Source of the DNA: Nitrospirillum viridazoti CBAmc
GTDB lineage: Bacteria > Pseudomonadota > Alphaproteobacteria > Azospirillales > Azospirillaceae
DNA length: 64,000 bases
Direction of reading: 5' to 3'
Assembly: GCF_000730165.1 (NCBI RefSeq)
Contig: NZ_CP022111.1
Location: 1,798,001 to 1,862,000 of the forward strand
Shown here: positions 7,049 through 53,189 of the stretch, piece after piece
Layout of the letters: each line of letters opens with the position of its first letter
Numbering within the stretch: position 1 is the stretch's first letter
The notes under the pieces: generated by a model
What the model was told of the DNA's origin: nothing
Database searches by the model: none
What the model saw: the letters and a program-made list of their open reading frames with translations, nothing else
Made by a program: the position numbers and the translations under genes

Positions 7049-7936
7049 ATGTTGGGATGGAGGGACCAGCGGCGCCTGCTGCTGGTGACGGCCGCCTGCC
7101 TGGCGCTGGGGGCCTGCGGCAAGACAGCGGAGAAGAAGGAAATGGCGGCGGTATCCCGGCCGACGGGGCCCGTCCCAGGATCGAAGGAGGATTTCGTTCC
7201 CTCTTTTGGCATGGCGTCGCAGCAAGGCCTGGAGGCCATGAAGCGCCGATATGTGGCTCTCAGCCACAGCTATACCCTGCGCCTGCCGACCGAGGCGGTG
7301 GAGATGGCACAGCGCCGTGATCTGGACGCCTGCGCCAAGCTGGGGTGCGAGATCCTTGAGTCCCAGCTGAACCGCAACGGATTCCGGGGCCAAGTCAGCG
7401 CCCACACCAGCCTGCGCCTGCCACCGGCAGCCTTGGCCCCTTTCACCGCCGGCCTGGCGGCCCCGCCGGCGGAGATCGCCGCCCATTCCGAAACCAGCGA
7501 GGACAAGACGCTGGCCGTGCTGGATGTCGACAAGCGGCTGGAAACCAAGATTGCCCTGCGGGAACGGCTGACCACCCTGTTGCATCAGACCAACACCAAG
7601 AACGTCGGCGACCTGCTGAACGTGGAACACACCCTGGCCCAGGTGCAGGGCGATATCGAGAGCGCCACCGCCCAGCGTGACTACCTGCGCACCCAGACGG
7701 AGATGGTGAAGGTCGACATCCGGTACGAGGGCATTCAGCCGGATGAGCCCAAACCCAACGGTGTGGACTGGCGCCCCCTTAAAACCGCGGCCAAGGACTT
7801 CTGCGACATCCTGGTGGACTCGCTGGCCAACGTCATGACCTTCACCGCCCGCATCCTGCCCTGGCTGCCGCTGGCGGCTCTGGCCGGCTGGCTGCTGCGC
7901 CTGGTGTGGCGCCGCTGGCGACGCAAGGCCACCTAA
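7049..7936 (+). CDS. DUF4349 domain lipoprotein
   Basis: A 295-residue lipoprotein. The signal peptide ends in the lipobox LALGAC (Cys23). The central part matches the DUF4349 pattern: LDACAKLGCEILESQL, then a strand with LRLPPAALAPF, and a coiled-coil helix pair with RLETKIALRERLTTLL, NVGDLLNVEHTLAQVQGDIE and ATAQRDYLRTQTEMVKVDI. The protein ends with one membrane helix (about 262-285) and a strongly basic tail RLVWRRWRRKAT. This architecture suggests an envelope protein tethered at both ends. Its stop overlaps by 4 bases the stop of the converging SDR gene. Function of the family is unknown. Confidence 0.85.
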   Translation: MLGWRDQRRLLLVTAACLALGACGKTAEKKEMAAVSRPTGPVPGSKEDFVPSFGMASQQGLEAMKRRYVALSHSYTLRLPTEAVEMAQRRDLDACAKLGCEILESQLNRNGFRGQVSAHTSLRLPPAALAPFTAGLAAPPAEIAAHSETSEDKTLAVLDVDKRLETKIALRERLTTLLHQTNTKNVGDLLNVEHTLAQVQGDIESATAQRDYLRTQTEMVKVDIRYEGIQPDEPKPNGVDWRPLKTAAKDFCDILVDSLANVMTFTARILPWLPLAALAGWLLRLVWRRWRRKAT

Positions 7937-8682
7937 GCCAGCTTGGCCACCAGCGACAGGGGCAGCAGCCTCATGATCGGCGCCATGTAGGCCCAGGGCC
8001 AGGCAGGGACGTAGGCCTTGGCCGGCTCCCGCTCGATGGCGCGCACCAGCAGGCGGCTGCCCACGTCGCCGGGGATGGCGAAGGGCAGGCGCTTGGCGCC
8101 CTCGTTCAGTTCGGTGCGGATGTAGCCGGGCAGGATGCTGCTGACCCGGATGGGGCTGCGCAGCAGGTCGGCCTGGATACCTTCCGTCAGGGCGGCCAGG
8201 CCGGCCTTGGTGGCGGCGTAGGTGGTCATATGCTTGGGCAGGCCGCGCAAGGCGCTCATGGAGGAGATGACCACTAGATGGCCTCTATTCCGGGGTCGGA
8301 ACAATTCCAGTGCCGCCTCGCACTGCGCCAGGGCCGCCACGAAGTTGGTCTGGGCCGTGGCCAGATTGTCGGCGAAGTGCCCGGTGCCGATGCGCCGGCC
8401 GGAGCCGATGCCGGCGTTGACGATGATGCGATCCAGCCCACCCATTTCGGTATCGAAAGCACGGAAGGTCTCGAACACTGCCGCATGGTCGGTGACGTCC
8501 AGCGGGCGGATGGCGACGCGGATGCCGGGATGGGCCCGCAGCAGTTCGTCCCGCAGCGCCACCAGCCTGTCGGTGCGGCGGGCGCACAGGGCGAGGTCGC
8601 GGCCCAGGGCGGCGAATTCCCGGGCCATGCCCAGGCCCAAGCCGGAGCTGGCACCGGTGATGAGGATGGTCTTGGCTGGCAT
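7933..8682 (-). CDS. SDR family oxidoreductase (last gene of the acyl-CoA operon)
   Basis: A classical short-chain dehydrogenase of 249 residues: TGASSGLG cofactor motif at 9-16, NAG at 89-91, catalytic Ser141, Tyr155 and Lys159 (YAATK). It is the promoter-distal gene of a five-gene operon (acyl-CoA dehydrogenase, SDR, kinase, histidine phosphatase, this SDR), 9 bases after the phosphatase gene. The context suggests oxidation or reduction of a hydroxy/keto acyl-CoA or of the free hydroxy acid. Activity class is secure; substrate is inferred. Confidence 0.9.
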   Translation of the reverse strand: MPAKTILITGASSGLGLGMAREFAALGRDLALCARRTDRLVALRDELLRAHPGIRVAIRPLDVTDHAAVFETFRAFDTEMGGLDRIIVNAGIGSGRRIGTGHFADNLATAQTNFVAALAQCEAALELFRPRNRGHLVVISSMSALRGLPKHMTTYAATKAGLAALTEGIQADLLRSPIRVSSILPGYIRTELNEGAKRLPFAIPGDVGSRLLVRAIEREPAKAYVPAWPWAYMAPIMRLLPLSLVAKLA

Positions 8683-8691
8683 CTCTGTTCC

Positions 8692-9399
8692 TCAGCGATA
8701 TGTCAGCAGGCCGTCCGGCCCGTCCAGGCCCGCCTGCTCGTTCAGGCTGGACAGCGACCAGCCCGTCCCTACCCGGCCCACGGCCTTGGATGAGGCCAGC
8801 AGTTTGGTGACGCCGCCGTTGACCAGGGCCCAGTGCACCTGCCGGGCGCCGGCATCATCCAGACCCAGCACCGCCTGCACCGCCGCCATGATGGGGCCGC
8901 CGGAGGTGAAGACCAGGACGGTGTTGCCCAACTGGGCCGCCCGGGCCAAGCCGGCCAGCACACGGTTGCGGAAAACCGGCCAGCATTCGGCGTAGTCGGC
9001 ATCGTGCTGCCCGCCCATCCAGCGGGCCACCGCCTCGGCGAACAGGGCCTGGTAGGCGCGGCGGGGATCGGGCGCGGTGGCCAGTTCCGCCCTGAGCGCG
9101 GCGGCGTCAGCCAAATCGGGACGATGGCAGGCGACCACGTCGGCCGGGTCGTACTCATTCAGGTCGGGATCGATGGACAAGGCCGTGCCGCCCCGGCCCA
9201 TGGCCTCAAGGCAGGCGGCGGCGGTGTCGCGGTGACGGTTCAGGCTGCCGCTGACGGCGACGATGTCCGCCACCCCCAACCGGGCGCCCAGCTGCCGGCC
9301 CACCACCCGGCCCTGGGCGATGCCCAGCGCCGACAGCCGGTCGTAATCGTCCGCCCCGAAGGAGGCCTGGCCATGACGGATGAGGTGCAGCGCCACCAT
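8692..9399 (-). CDS. Histidine phosphatase family protein
   Basis: A 235-residue branch-1 histidine phosphatase (phosphoglycerate-mutase superfamily). The nucleophile motif RHGQ sits at residues 8-11, and the second-half histidine region VFTSGGPI is near residue 165. The family removes phosphate from small molecules through a phosphohistidine. The gene starts 4 bases after the stop of the kinase gene upstream and 9 bases before the SDR gene downstream, so it is translationally tied to a kinase that may phosphorylate 4-hydroxyacyl-CoA. It may remove dead-end phosphate esters in that pathway, which is inference. In the second motif Gly-Gly-Pro replaces the more usual His-Gly; the second catalytic histidine may be altered and deserves a check. 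Confidence 0.85.
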   Translation of the reverse strand: MVALHLIRHGQASFGADDYDRLSALGIAQGRVVGRQLGARLGVADIVAVSGSLNRHRDTAAACLEAMGRGGTALSIDPDLNEYDPADVVACHRPDLADAAALRAELATAPDPRRAYQALFAEAVARWMGGQHDADYAECWPVFRNRVLAGLARAAQLGNTVLVFTSGGPIMAAVQAVLGLDDAGARQVHWALVNGGVTKLLASSKAVGRVGTGWSLSSLNEQAGLDGPDGLLTYR

Positions 9400-9403
9400 G
9401 GGA

Positions 9404-10528
9404 TCAGCGCCCCGCCCGGCGCAGGATGCGGCGGCACCGCCAATCCAGATAGGTCACCAGCAGCCAGAAGCGCTTGAAAGCCGGGTTGCGGGTCTGGCGG
9501 TGGTGATAGCGGTAATAGATCTGCTGGGCGATGACGGCCAGGCGAAACAGGCCGAACACCTCATAGAAGGTCCAATCCACCGCCTTCGCGTCCAGCCGGT
9601 CGCCCATGGCCGCCAGGTAATGCGCCACCACCTGGTCCCGCGTCAGCATGCCCGGCAGGTGGGTGGGCTGACGGCGGATGGAACGCATGAAGAAGTCGTC
9701 GTCCGCCTGCACCCAGTAGGCCAGCGCCCCGCCCAGATCCATCAACGGGTCGCCGATGGTGGCCATTTCCCAGTCCAGCACGCCGATGACATGGGTGGGG
9801 TCAGCCGCGTCCAGCACCAGATTGTCGAAGCGCCAGTCGTTATGGATGACGCATGCGGCGCTGTCCGCCGGCGTGTTGGCGGCCAGCCAGGCCCGCACCT
9901 TGGCGAAGGAGGGCACGTTCCAGGTGCGCGCCTTCTGGTAGCGGCCGGACCAACCCTCCACCTGACGGCGGCAATAGCCGTCGCCCTTGCCCAAGGCCGA
10001 AAGGCCGGCGGCCTCCGGATCCACGCGATGCAGGGCCACCAGCTTATCCACCATGGCCAGGCACAGGCGGCGCACGGCATCCGGCCCCATGTCCAGGCCG
10101 CGCGGCAGGTTGGCCCGGGGGATGATGCCGGCGATGCGTTCCATGACATAGAAATCGGCGCCGATGACCCGGTCGTCCTGGCACAGCCCCACCATGGTGG
10201 GCACCCAGGGGAAGACGGGCTTCAGCGCCTGCTGCACACGGAATTCACGCGCCATGTCATGGGCGGACTTGGCCTTGGTGCCGGCCGGTGGCCGGCGCAG
10301 GATGAAGTCGCCCTCCGCCCCGTCCTCGCCATAGGCCAGGCGGTAAGTCCAGTTGCTGGCCCCGCCGGAATACTGCGTCACGGCCGGCAGGCCCCGCAGG
10401 TCCGGCCGCCGTTCCTTCAGCCAGCGGTCGACCACCGCAACGTCCAGATCCTCACCCGGCCGAACCGGGCCCGCCCGGTCGGTCACGGGACGGGGCGGCG
10501 CCTCCCCCGCCGCGGAAGCCGCCGTCAT
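9404..10528 (-). CDS. APH-family phosphotransferase, probable hydroxyacyl-CoA kinase
   Basis: A 374-residue protein with the aminoglycoside phosphotransferase / choline kinase fold. Nucleotide-loop residues lie in QYSGGASNWTYRL, the catalytic loop is HNDWRFDN (His229, Asp231, Asn236) and the metal-binding motif is LDWEMATIGDP (Asp252). Relatives next to or fused with acyl-CoA dehydrogenases (human ACAD10/11, Pseudomonas LvaA) phosphorylate the 4-hydroxyl of 4-hydroxyacyl-CoA. The start at 10526-10528 overlaps the stop of the preceding SDR gene as ATGA, typical of translational coupling. The same frame stays open further upstream, but that part lies over the SDR gene. It is unlikely to act on aminoglycosides, judging by its operon. 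Confidence 0.92.
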   Translation of the reverse strand: MTAASAAGEAPPRPVTDRAGPVRPGEDLDVAVVDRWLKERRPDLRGLPAVTQYSGGASNWTYRLAYGEDGAEGDFILRRPPAGTKAKSAHDMAREFRVQQALKPVFPWVPTMVGLCQDDRVIGADFYVMERIAGIIPRANLPRGLDMGPDAVRRLCLAMVDKLVALHRVDPEAAGLSALGKGDGYCRRQVEGWSGRYQKARTWNVPSFAKVRAWLAANTPADSAACVIHNDWRFDNLVLDAADPTHVIGVLDWEMATIGDPLMDLGGALAYWVQADDDFFMRSIRRQPTHLPGMLTRDQVVAHYLAAMGDRLDAKAVDWTFYEVFGLFRLAVIAQQIYYRYHHRQTRNPAFKRFWLLVTYLDWRCRRILRRAGR

Positions 10529-11415
10529 CCGCGCGACCCGGTCGAGGGGGCCGCCGGCTGCTGGGGCTGGCCGGCGGCGATGCGCGACGGTGTTGCCATG
10601 CTGCGCGCCCGCTTGTCGATCATGGCCACGTACCAGGCGCGCGGCATCAGCCGCTTCATCAGCCAGAAGCGGCGGCCTTCCTTGTGCGGCAGCAGGTGGC
10701 AGCGGCCTGCGGCCACGCCCTGGAACACGTACTCGGCCACATCCTCCGCCGTGATGCCGGGGCGGTTCAGCAGCTTGTCCACCCGGGCGCGCAGGCGGGG
10801 GTCGGTGGTGCGCAGGCTGCTGGCCAGGTTGGTCTTGAAGAAGGAGGGGCAGATGACGCTGACGCCGATGCCGCTGGGCGCCAGTTCGTGCTGCAGCGTC
10901 TCGGAAAGGGAGACCACCGCCGCCTTGGTGGCGTTGTAGGCGCTCATCGTCGGCATATCGAGCAGGCCAGCCATGGAGGCGGTGTTCACGAAATAGCCGT
11001 GGCCCTGCGCCTTGAACATCGGCGTAAAGGCCTTGCAGCCCCGCACCACGCCCATCAGGTTGATGTCGATGATCCAGCGCCAATCATCCAGCGGCGTGTC
11101 GTCGATGTTGCCGGCCTGGGCCACGCCGGCGTTGTTGACGACGATGTCGACCCCGCCCCAGCGTTGGGTCAGGGCCTGGGCGGCCGCGTCCAGCGCCGCG
11201 TCATCGCGCACGTCGCAGGGAATGGCGAAGGCGTCGGGCGCGATGGCCGACAGTTCCGCCACCGCCGCCGCCATGGCGTCGGGGTTTATATCGCCCACGG
11301 CCACGCGCCAGCCGGCCCGGGCGTAGCGCTTGCCCAGCGCCAGGCCCAGGCCGCTGGCCCCGCCCGTGATGAAGATACGCCCGCCCTGCGGCCCCGTCTT
11401 CGGCGTGATGCCCAT
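10525..11415 (-). CDS. SDR family NAD(P)-dependent oxidoreductase
   Basis: A 296-residue short-chain dehydrogenase. TGGASGLG at residues 17-24 binds the cofactor, NNAG is at 94-97 and the catalytic pair is Tyr160/Lys164 (YNATK). A C-terminal extension of about 60 residues beyond the core carries basic and aromatic residues (RRFWLMKRLMPRAWYVAM), a feature of membrane- or lipid-associated SDRs. Second gene of the acyl-CoA operon, 170 bases after the dehydrogenase gene and overlapping the kinase gene by 4 bases. It could interconvert a 4-oxo and a 4-hydroxy acyl-CoA before phosphorylation; this is inferred from gene order. Confidence 0.9.
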   Translation of the reverse strand: MGITPKTGPQGGRIFITGGASGLGLALGKRYARAGWRVAVGDINPDAMAAAVAELSAIAPDAFAIPCDVRDDAALDAAAQALTQRWGGVDIVVNNAGVAQAGNIDDTPLDDWRWIIDINLMGVVRGCKAFTPMFKAQGHGYFVNTASMAGLLDMPTMSAYNATKAAVVSLSETLQHELAPSGIGVSVICPSFFKTNLASSLRTTDPRLRARVDKLLNRPGITAEDVAEYVFQGVAAGRCHLLPHKEGRRFWLMKRLMPRAWYVAMIDKRARSMATPSRIAAGQPQQPAAPSTGSRG

Positions 11416-11585
11416 GCCGTCAATCCTCCCCTTATTTTCATTGGCCTTTAATCCAGGGATTAAAGGCCCCTCAGTCGCCGGGCGCGGCCATCCGGCCGCT
11501 TGGCTTCCTCGTTTCCCGTTCCGCTCCGCTTCCCGGACAACTCCGGCGGCGGCAGTCGCGGCCTACGCCGACAAGAGCCGATGGC

Positions 11586-12824
11586 TCATGCCGGTGTCTT
11601 TTTGTAGCCGCGCTTGGCCAGCTCAATGCGGGCAATCATGGCCTTGTGCACCTCATCCGGTCCATCGGCCAAGCGCAGGGACCGCGCCTGGGCGTAGAAG
11701 CCGGCCAGCGGCGTGTCGCCCGACACGCCGGCGCCGCCGTGCATCTGGATGGCGTCGTCCACCACCCGTTCCAGCACGCTGGGCGCCACCACCTTGATGG
11801 CGGAAATCTCGGTCAGGGCCGCCTGGGTTCCCACCTTGTCCATCTTCCAGGCGGCATAGAGGGTCAGCAGGCGGGCCTGGTCGATGGCCACGCGGGCCTC
11901 GGCCACGCGTTCGCGGTTGCCGCCCAGATCGATCAGGGGGCGGCCGAAGGCGGTGCGGCTGGTGCCCCGGCGGATCATGAGGTCCAACGCCGCCTCGGCC
12001 GCGCCCAGGCAGCGCATGCAGTGATGGATGCGGCCGGGCCCCAGGCGCCCCTGCGCGATCTCGAACCCCATCCCGGGGCCGGCGATCAGGTTGGATGCGG
12101 GCACGCGCACCCGGTCGAACACCACCTCGCCATGGCCGTGGGGGGCGTCCCAGGCGCCGAAGACGGGCAGCATGCGTTCGATGCGTACGCCCGGCGCGTC
12201 CAGGGGCACCAGCACCATGGAATGCTGGTGATGGCGGTCGCGGCTCTCATCCGGCGTGCGGGCCATGACGATGGCGATGCGGGCGCGGGGATCGCCGATG
12301 CCGCTGGACCACCATTTGCGCCCCGTGACCACCACCTCGTCCCCTTCGACCACCGCCGTGGCCGCCATGTTGGTAGCGTCGGACGAGGCCACCTCTGGCT
12401 CGGTCATGCTGAAGACGCTGCGGATTTCCCCGGCCAGCAGGGGTTTCAGCCACTGTTCCTGCTGGTCCTTGCTGCCGTAGCGCCACAGCACCTCCATATT
12501 GCCGGTGTCGGGGGCGTTGCAGTTGAACACCTCCGGCGCCATCAGGCTGTGGCCCGTGGCCTCGGCGATAGGGGCGTATTCCAGGGTGCTGAGGCCGGCG
12601 CCCAATTCCGCGTCGGGCAGAAACATGTTCCACAGGCCCTCGGCCTTGGCCCGGGCCTTCAGCTCTTCCATCTTGGGTGGCACGCGCCAGGCGGTCCAGT
12701 CGGGACCGTCATGGGCGGCCACGTCGTGCCAGTACTGGGCCTCCACCGGGGCGATGTGGTCGGCGATGAAGCGGCGGACACGATCCAGATAGTCCTGGCC
12801 GCGGGCGCTGGGCTGGAAGTCCAT
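11586..12824 (-). CDS. Acyl-CoA dehydrogenase of the ACAD10/11-like type
   Basis: A 412-residue flavoprotein of the acyl-CoA dehydrogenase family. Visible parts are the N-terminal helical domain, the FAD-binding strand with FSMTEPEVASSDATN, the WWSSG segment, and the C-terminal helical domain with QMHGGAGVSGDTPLAGFYAQ. The late motif ADGPDEVH (386-393) is characteristic of ACAD10/11-like proteins that act on phosphorylated hydroxyacyl-CoA. The start at 12822-12824 (MDFQPSARGQ) has a GGGAGAA ribosome site; a longer reading adds 16 residues without one. First gene of the five-gene operon; a LysR gene diverges 79 bases away. Product assignment to the family is firm, the elimination reaction is inferred. 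Confidence 0.92.
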   Translation of the reverse strand: MDFQPSARGQDYLDRVRRFIADHIAPVEAQYWHDVAAHDGPDWTAWRVPPKMEELKARAKAEGLWNMFLPDAELGAGLSTLEYAPIAEATGHSLMAPEVFNCNAPDTGNMEVLWRYGSKDQQEQWLKPLLAGEIRSVFSMTEPEVASSDATNMAATAVVEGDEVVVTGRKWWSSGIGDPRARIAIVMARTPDESRDRHHQHSMVLVPLDAPGVRIERMLPVFGAWDAPHGHGEVVFDRVRVPASNLIAGPGMGFEIAQGRLGPGRIHHCMRCLGAAEAALDLMIRRGTSRTAFGRPLIDLGGNRERVAEARVAIDQARLLTLYAAWKMDKVGTQAALTEISAIKVVAPSVLERVVDDAIQMHGGAGVSGDTPLAGFYAQARSLRLADGPDEVHKAMIARIELAKRGYKKTPA

Positions 12825-12865
12825 CGGCGTTCTCTCCCTTTTGTTGAGGGGAGTGTAGCGCCGGA

Positions 12866-12902
12866 TTGACATGAACGGATGGGAAGTTTATGCGCGATAA
12901 AC
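12866..12902 (+). promoter_or_regulatory. Promoter and palindromic operator of the LysR gene
   Basis: TTGACA (12866-12871) is spaced 17 bases from TATGCG (12889-12894). The perfect inverted repeat GTTTAT-GCGCG-ATAAAC (12886-12902) covers the -10 element and ends one base before the LysR start codon. It has the T-N11-A form of LysR sites. Predicted transcription would begin within a few bases of the ATG. Confidence 0.6.
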
Positions 12903-12903
12903 C

Positions 12904-13857
12904 ATGAATGATGTTCATGATATCCGCCTGCTTTCGCGGCTGGACCTGAACCTGCTGCGGGTGTTCGACGCCGTCTACCGGGCGCGTAGCTTGACGCGGG
13001 CGGCGGATGAGCTGGCGCTGTCGCAATCGGCCGTCAGCCATGCCCTGGCCCGCCTGCGCGACCAGTTGGGCCCGCATTTGGGCGCAGGTGATGAGCCCCT
13101 GTTCCCCCGCGATGGCCGGGGCGTGGCGCCCTCCGCCCTGGCCCGCCGCCTGGCCCCCCGGGTGCGCGAGGCGCTGGCGGCCCTGGGCCGGGCCCTGGCC
13201 GACGCCCAGGATTTCCAGCCGGACCGCGACCTGCGCCAGGCCGTCATCGCCATGCCGGAGGCGGTGGAACCCGCCCTGCTGCCGGCCATGATGGCCCGCC
13301 TGCGCCGGCACCTGGCGGAGGGATCCAGCCCCAGGCTGGACAGCGTGCGGCTGGACCGGGCCACCATGAAAGCCGATCTGGCGCGGGGCCGCATGGACCT
13401 GGCGGTGGATGTGACCCTGGCGCCCGACCCCGACCTGCGCCACCTGCCGCTGTTGAGCGACGACTACTGCCTGGTCGCGGCCGCAGGCCATGTCCCCGTT
13501 GATCTGGAGGGGTATATGGCGGCGGCGCACATCGCCGTCTCCTCCCGCCGCAGCGGTCCGGCGGTGGAGGACTACGCCCTGCTGCGCCTGGGCATACAGC
13601 GGAAAATTTCGCTGCGCTGCCAACGGTATGAGACCGCCTGCCGCGTGGTAGCGGAAGCGGGCCTGAAAGGCGGCGGCTTGCTGCTGACCATGGGTCGACA
13701 CCACAGCCAACCGCTGGTGGACGGCAGCCGGGGGGCCCTGGTCACCCTGCCCCTGCCTCTGGACATGCCGCCATTGGCGTTTAATCTCTACTGGCATCGC
13801 GCCAGTGACGATGACCCCGCCAACCGCTGGCTGCGCGACATTCTGCGCCCGACCTGA
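12904..13857 (+). CDS. LysR family transcriptional regulator
   Basis: A 317-residue LysR regulator. The winged-helix part opens with LDLNLLRVFDAVYRARSLTRAADELALSQSAVSHALARL (shown here only by its parts LDLNLLRVFDAV and SQSAVSHALARL), followed by the linker and a periplasmic-binding-like effector domain. It is divergent from the acyl-CoA dehydrogenase operon and is its likely activator. An in-frame TAA lies two codons before the ATG at 12904, so translation cannot start upstream, and there is no ribosome site; the mRNA may be leaderless. The effector is probably an intermediate of the neighbouring pathway (inference). Confidence 0.9.
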   Translation: MNDVHDIRLLSRLDLNLLRVFDAVYRARSLTRAADELALSQSAVSHALARLRDQLGPHLGAGDEPLFPRDGRGVAPSALARRLAPRVREALAALGRALADAQDFQPDRDLRQAVIAMPEAVEPALLPAMMARLRRHLAEGSSPRLDSVRLDRATMKADLARGRMDLAVDVTLAPDPDLRHLPLLSDDYCLVAAAGHVPVDLEGYMAAAHIAVSSRRSGPAVEDYALLRLGIQRKISLRCQRYETACRVVAEAGLKGGGLLLTMGRHHSQPLVDGSRGALVTLPLPLDMPPLAFNLYWHRASDDDPANRWLRDILRPT

Positions 13858-53071: not shown

Positions 53072-53189
53072 GCGGCATCCATGCCGCTAGGACGCGACCG
53101 CGTCCGCCGCAGCATTTCGGGGAGCGTCAAGCGGACTGAAATGCGAGGAAGCCAAGGCCACGGATGTGGCCGCCCGGCGCCTGAGGGAA

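Follow-up and report, generated by a model that had tools for sequence, protein, structure and literature searches.

Lipid peroxidation is one source of 4-hydroxy fatty acids, and gamma-lactones and levulinate derived from biomass are others; the kinase-eliminase route for the breakdown of these acids was linked to genes only in 2017-2025. In the lva operon of Pseudomonas putida, the route is served by a separate kinase, an acyl-coenzyme A (CoA) dehydrogenase (ACAD) of the ACAD10/11 type, and a reductase of the short-chain dehydrogenase/reductase (SDR) family, with a proposed 4-phosphoacyl-CoA intermediate. The protein LvaB of this system binds LvaA (PMC6692424). The levulinate cluster of P. 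citronellolis LA18T, described in 2019, has the order kinase-histidine phosphatase-ACAD-SDR, and the histidine phosphatase gene is located beside the lvaA homologue, where strain KT2440 has lvaB; the authors suggested that the phosphatase removes phosphate and asked for functional work (PMC6692424). Mammalian ACAD10 and ACAD11 combine the kinase and the dehydrogenase in one protein, and ACAD10 additionally carries a degenerate HAD phosphatase domain, in which a catalytic Asp is missing; this domain shows hardly any phosphatase activity and acts as an inhibitor of the kinase (PMC11342911). A stand-alone kinase and ACAD from Burkholderia pseudomallei (Q63VL0 and Q63VL1) process 4-hydroxyhexanoyl-CoA and can stand in for the domains of ACAD10 in vitro (PMC11342911). 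Here we analyzed a window of 64,000 nt from Nitrospirillum viridazoti CBAmc (contig NZ_CP022111.1, positions 1,798,001 to 1,862,000) and describe a five-gene operon that, judging from its conserved residues, is well supported as a 4-hydroxyacyl-CoA phosphorylation-elimination module and as a new variant of the known pathway.

The operon runs on the minus strand from position 12824 to position 7933 of the window and comprises the following genes.

11586..12824, minus strand: ACAD10/11-type acyl-CoA dehydrogenase, 412 amino acids (GRLGPGRIHHCMR signature; PDB matches; Pfam Acyl-CoA_dh).
10525..11415, minus strand: SDR1, PRK05650-like and NAD-type, with a proposed role in 4-hydroxyl oxidation (NF004196, 380 bits, above the cut-off; Pfam adh_short).
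9404..10528, minus strand: APH-family kinase of lineage I, proposed to be a 4-hydroxyacyl-CoA kinase (PF01636, 161 bits; catalytic motifs).
8692..9399, minus strand: histidine-phosphatase-fold protein (HP), with Ser166 replacing the second active-site His (PF00300, His_Phos_1, 55 bits; AlphaFold2 model).
7933..8682, minus strand: SDR2, PRK08251-like and NADP-type, with a proposed role in 4-oxoacyl-CoA reduction (NF006099, 390 bits, above the cut-off; Pfam adh_short).

No other gene intervenes among the five, and they are flanked by a LysR gene on one side and, on the other, by a convergent open reading frame (ORF) that is unrelated. A first-pass annotation of this DNA had proposed such an operon, with the last four genes overlapping or 4-9 bases apart; the coordinates and the Pfam and NCBIfam families agree with the proposal, and the spacing is a 4-nt overlap (ATGA) between SDR1 and the kinase, a 4-nt gap between the kinase and HP, and a 9-nt gap between HP and SDR2. 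ACAD and SDR1 are separated by 170 nt.

Like the lva operon, the locus encodes its kinase separately from an ACAD10/11-type dehydrogenase and an SDR reductase, and a 4-phosphoacyl-CoA intermediate is proposed for both. It differs in that LvaB, the LvaE-type CoA ligase, LvaF/G, the transporter, and the sigma-54 regulator LvaR are all missing from the cluster, so that it is not an lva operon, and in that it possesses the LysR gene, HP, and a second SDR. The P. citronellolis cluster is likewise built from a kinase, an ACAD, an SDR, and a member of the histidine phosphatase family, a likeness drawn here at the level of gene families; it differs in its LvaR-type regulator, CoA ligase, and transporter. 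To the first-pass annotation, the substrate range and the phosphatase role had appeared undescribed for this arrangement. The arrangement itself is partly described, because a histidine phosphatase gene beside lvaA has already been published, with its role predicted only (PMC6692424). The mammalian enzymes share the kinase and ACAD chemistry and all of the ACAD active-site residues; they differ in being fused, and both the kinase and the ACAD of ACAD11 belong to another lineage (lineage II, see below). Where ACAD10 has its HAD domain, the operon has HP instead. The B. pseudomallei proteins, which are orthologues of LvaA and LvaC, are stand-alone as in the present operon, and their probable membership of lineage II is set by a published description that has them nearer to ACAD10 than LvaA. 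Mycobacterial FadE36 may be a kinase of such a type, and FadE2 may lie beside the phosphatase PtpB, although literature searches gave no support for this. None of the papers searched describes the altered active site of HP, its strict co-occurrence with the ACAD, or the division into two lineages, all of which are presented below.

The signature GRLGPGRIHHCMR of the dehydrogenase includes R260, R265, H268, and R271, and the catalytic D387 lies within ADGPDEVH, which occupies residues 386-393 as first read. In the alignment, R260, H268, R271, and D387 correspond to R626, H634, R637, and D753 of mouse ACAD11 (the numbering of the ACAD11 PDB chain is that of the paper minus one, as verified on fixed motifs), all of which are required for phosphate elimination from 4-phosphoacyl-CoA, substitution abolishing the activity (PMC12440821). 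In this enzyme, Asp takes the place of the catalytic Glu (ADGPDE), and both the HCMR motif and the Arg upstream of it, which serve to bind the 4-phosphate, are present. It is also nearer to ACAD11 than to other ACADs: the only PDB sequences matching at E<=1e-40 were 4hr3 (557 bits) and mouse and human ACAD11 (8v3u, 8v3v, and 2wbi), and it is the sole ACAD10/11-type ACAD of its genome, the next-best ACAD there being 33% identical. The active-site motifs are present in nearly all of 126 ACADs, spanning both lineages.

The kinase retains D231 and N236 of the HNDxxxxN motif and D252, the second metal Asp, in LDWE, and the catalytic residues are complete as previously claimed. The arginines contacting CoA are also retained, namely R94 (AREF, beside the alpha-C Glu) and R188 (CRRQV, in the RQV segment); here we take the alpha-C Arg, R86 in PMC12440821, as the Arg of the REF motif. 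Together with the four ACAD residues, these five residues support the earlier assignment to 4-hydroxyacyl-CoA phosphorylation and elimination at the residue level. The best PDB matches were 9o56, ACAD11, and 3dxp, and the kinase is 40% identical to 9o56 and 31% identical to the kinase domain of mouse ACAD11, aligned over 320 residues. An aminoglycoside resistance function was considered for this APH-family protein and rejected, as matches to resistance models were weak (28 bits to Mph(F)).

Phylogenetic analysis placed the kinase outside the ACAD11 kinase clade. In a tree of 100 kinases, it groups with PDB 9o56 in one clade (lineage I), apart from the clade of mouse ACAD11 (lineage II), with support of 0.98/1.0. 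A tree of 126 ACADs is split in the same manner: a single branch with support of 1.0 separates 59/59 ACADs linked to lineage-I kinases from 27/27 linked to lineage-II kinases, mouse ACAD11 being counted among the latter. The kinase and the ACAD have thus diverged together, each kinase lineage with its own ACAD lineage, and this lends independent support to the view that the two act jointly. From the two trees, there are two ancient, co-diverging kinase-dehydrogenase lineages in bacteria, and the pair encoded here is a sister lineage of ACAD10/11, not identical with it, a correction to the first-pass annotation.

The AlphaFold2 model of HP (pLDDT, the predicted local distance difference test score, 94.4) has the branch-1 histidine phosphatase fold, and its nearest PDB structures are PGAM5, PhoE, and RosC (Z about 21). 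A PDB search with the single HP sequence gave a chance match only, and real matches were obtained with a profile. HP shares with branch-1 PhoE, PGAM5, RosC, and the Aquifex riboflavin-pathway HFP the fold, the RHG nucleophile motif (R8, H9, and G10), the second Arg (R55), and the Glu proton donor (E82), but differs from all of them in an invariant Ser at the position of the second active-site His. This His is among the four residues characteristic of all histidine phosphatase members (PMC12051542). In the profile alignment, Ser166 lies opposite the His of the four top PDB matches (9mmh, 3hjg, 1qhf, and 4ij5). Ser was found in 155/155 homologous ORFs (126 with TSGG, 28 with SSGG, and 1 with SSTG, vs HGG), as well as in four plasmid copies of HP from Pseudomonadota, Actinomycetota, and Deinococcota, and the second His is retained in both of the remaining histidine phosphatases encoded by the N. 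viridazoti genome. Ser166 is, on this conservation, a fixed trait of the subfamily and not the decay of a single gene. R8, H9, R55, and E82 show no variation in either curated HP alignment, a pattern in keeping with an enzyme that continues to bind phosphate and probably to transfer it. The canonical phosphatase reading was rejected on account of the missing His; the first-pass annotation had taken the phosphatase at face value, although one of the four hallmark residues of the superfamily is replaced throughout the subfamily. A literature search found no publication on a pseudo-histidine-phosphatase of this kind.

The distribution of HP follows that of the dehydrogenase. A profile search with a limit of 1e-20 detected HP in 70/398 sampled genomes of the phylum, the weakest match being 3e-43, with a clear gap to anything else. 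The ACAD10/11-type dehydrogenase was present in 67 of these 70 genomes and in 62/328 genomes without HP (Fisher p about 1e-35, a value inflated by kinship). Outside Alphaproteobacteria, all 48 HP genomes (48/48), from eleven families, were ACAD-positive, and 48/50 ACAD genomes were HP-positive; the spread of the association over families is independent of the inflation by kinship. HP lies near the kinase or the ACAD in 31/52 sampled loci.

In SDR enzymes, an Asp at the end of beta2 marks the NAD type, and an Arg-Arg pair marks the NADP type. SDR1 has Asp42 at this position in 51/51 orthologues, with S147, Y160, and K164 invariant, and SDR2 has Arg35-Arg36 in 42/42 orthologues, with S141, Y155, and K159 invariant. 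The conserved opposite cofactor signatures suggest that the two enzymes may work in opposite directions. The ACAD10 kinase shows an approximately fourfold preference for the R isomer (PMC11342911). Given this preference, a pair of SDRs that oxidizes and then reduces would admit both isomers as well as 4-oxo acids.

The arrangement is far beyond chance, since the same order with a divergent LysR gene recurs in many families. The full order, LysR / ACAD-SDR1-kinase-HP-SDR2, was found in genera including Solimonas, Alteromonas, Shewanella, Zhongshania, Pseudoalteromonas, and Perlucidibaca, and in Marinobacter this order is kept, the final position being taken by a different SDR. Many Proteobacteria possess the full operon, and related clusters, most of which have a divergent LysR gene beside the ACAD, occur in Actinomycetota and Deinococcota and on plasmids of Azospirillum, Ideonella, Streptomyces, and Deinococcus radiodurans. 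Plasmid 3 of D. radiodurans (L231, NZ_OV024759.1) carries the ACAD10/11-type gene, the kinase, and a Ser-type HP together with genes for a MaoC dehydratase, a PaaI thioesterase, and SDRs. In a Pseudomonas-like family (f67), which we infer to be Pseudomonadaceae, a lineage-I ACAD was found in 145/149 genomes of one genus, apart from the HP-kinase-SDR cluster. Many of its loci (L048-L061 and L096-L098) contain the cluster of HP, lineage-I kinase, and SDR, with the cognate ACAD elsewhere beside a LysR gene. Other Pseudomonas-like loci (L204-L207) encode a further ACAD of ~50% identity, with neither the full GRxGPGRxHHxMR motif nor a kinase nearby. The P. putida-type lva operon was not found in the Pseudomonas-like genomes examined; the second ACADs in four genomes have no nearby kinase and are not lva. 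A search of 25 genomes from the genus to which G115 belongs gave one HP each and no additional lva-type HP. Ser-type HP genes with neither the kinase nor the ACAD nearby were observed at L070, L072-L077, L079, L080, L082, and L085-L088, and in an alphaproteobacterial family (f23) at L211-L216, L218-L220, and L223.

The window is located on contig 2 (2.0 Mb) of the four-contig, 7.38-Mb alphaproteobacterial genome. The 3' end of SDR2 overlaps by 4 nt (7933-7936) with that of a convergent 295-aa ORF on the plus strand (7049-7936). Two further features adjoin or interrupt the operon.

12904..13857, plus strand: LysR-family gene, divergent from the ACAD gene and probably the regulator of the operon (PF00126/PF03466).
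11416..11585, minus strand: copy of a dispersed repeat between ACAD and SDR1 (matches within the genome; missing in 5/6 sister genomes).

The 170-nt gap is a recent, lineage-specific insertion of this repeat. Among the window and six sister genomes, the extra sequence is common to the window and one sister (L032) only; in the other five (L033-L037), the ACAD stop codon lies only a few nucleotides ahead of the SDR1 start codon, from which it follows that the five genes were ancestrally contiguous. The gap sequence has at least 44 matches in its own genome at E<=1e-5 with 75-90% identity, a lower bound, as 40/140 candidates were scored. The repeat is GC-rich and about 100-165 nt long, and a weaker copy lies in the window at 53088-53187 (72% over 100 nt). 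At the end of the insert, a perfect 12-bp inverted repeat, GGCCTTTAATCC-CT-GGATTAAAGGCC, with a 2-nt loop is found at 11443-11468, the only such site in the window. Its arms change in step: the window has GGCCTTTAATCC/GGATTAAAGGCC, and L032 has GGCCTTTGATCC/GGATCAAAGGCC. Rfam gave no match for 11300-13000, which covers the ACAD-SDR1 intergenic region.

We propose that the operon feeds 4-hydroxyacyl-CoAs, which may derive from gamma-lactones, 4-hydroxy or 4-oxo acids, or oxidized lipids, into beta-oxidation, and we assign a probability of about 0.7 to this explanation with the roles of the SDRs and HP included. The kinase would phosphorylate the 4-hydroxyl group of the CoA thioester, and the ACAD10/11-type flavoenzyme would then eliminate phosphate to give a 2-enoyl-CoA; this part of the chemistry is highly probable. 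SDR1 (NAD) would oxidize and SDR2 (NADP) would re-reduce the 4-position, converting both stereoisomers and 4-oxo acids to the isomer accepted by the kinase, and we consider the chances of such a correction of stereochemistry to be even. HP with its Ser166 might handle the phosphorylated intermediate as a slow or specialized editing phosphatase, clearing stalled or wrong-isomer 4-phosphoacyl-CoA or the free acid, an idea that we put forward tentatively as the likeliest role. Several observations weigh against the explanation. The directions of the SDRs derive from cofactor-motif rules, and the kinase, given its low identity to ACAD11 and its separate clade, could act on a different substrate. 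HP is devoid of one hallmark residue and may not hydrolyze anything; it is unlinked to both the kinase and the ACAD in 21/52 sampled loci, and three HP-positive alphaproteobacterial genomes (G261, G282, and G291) have no ACAD at E<=1e-80.

HP may instead be a partner or regulator of the kinase and not a phosphatase, taking the role that LvaB has in P. putida or that of the degenerate HAD domain of ACAD10, which restrains the kinase of that protein; its phosphate pocket would sense the phosphorylated intermediate. The constant Ser at one of the four hallmark positions is consistent with such a role, as are the location of HP within 60 nt of a lineage-I kinase in 44 named loci, the replacement of lvaB, whose product binds LvaA, by a histidine phosphatase gene in P. 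citronellolis (PMC6692424), and the precedent of the inhibitory ACAD10 domain without its catalytic Asp (PMC11342911). On the other hand, the invariance of the nucleophile H9, of R8 and R55, and of the proton donor E82 would be unusual for a dead enzyme, several lineage-II clusters have HP adjoining the ACAD and not the kinase, and HP is encoded far from the kinase in many genomes. The retained residues tend to favor catalysis, and the fixed Ser, the exchange with LvaB, and the degenerate HAD domain tend to favor regulation; a purely regulatory HP is possible, if doubtful.

The same chemistry might also remove a hydroxyl group from another acyl-CoA, hydroxylated at a different position, branched, cyclic, or part of a secondary-metabolite chain. 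The separation of the kinase and ACAD lineage from ACAD10/11, the lack of a CoA ligase or transporter suggestive of levulinate, and the different neighbors in the actinomycete and Deinococcus clusters point in this direction. Nevertheless, we consider another substrate unlikely, because the ACAD has the same phosphate-binding and catalytic residues as ACAD11 and elimination to a 2-enoyl-CoA in this active site fits a phosphate on the gamma carbon. The family names, taken alone, would permit an ordinary fatty-acid ACAD with chance neighbors, the APH protein being an aminoglycoside-modifying enzyme. The conserved operon, the co-divergence of kinase and ACAD, the residues found only in ACAD10/11, and the PDB matches of the kinase make this extremely improbable.

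The phosphorylation-elimination module is far wider than the lva operon and has a dedicated HP companion with an invariant, altered active site. It is conceivable, though rather unlikely, that the Ser-type HP has been recruited in at least three phyla as a near-obligate companion of the module and that, as a sensing or regulatory subunit, it keeps phosphorylated acyl-CoA from building up. If this were true, HP would be an analogue, built on an unrelated fold, of LvaB as the partner of LvaA and of the degenerate HAD domain in ACAD10. Two questions can now be tested: whether a cell that forms phosphorylated acyl-CoA requires a protein for editing or limiting, and whether the degenerate phosphatase domain of human ACAD10 serves the same need.

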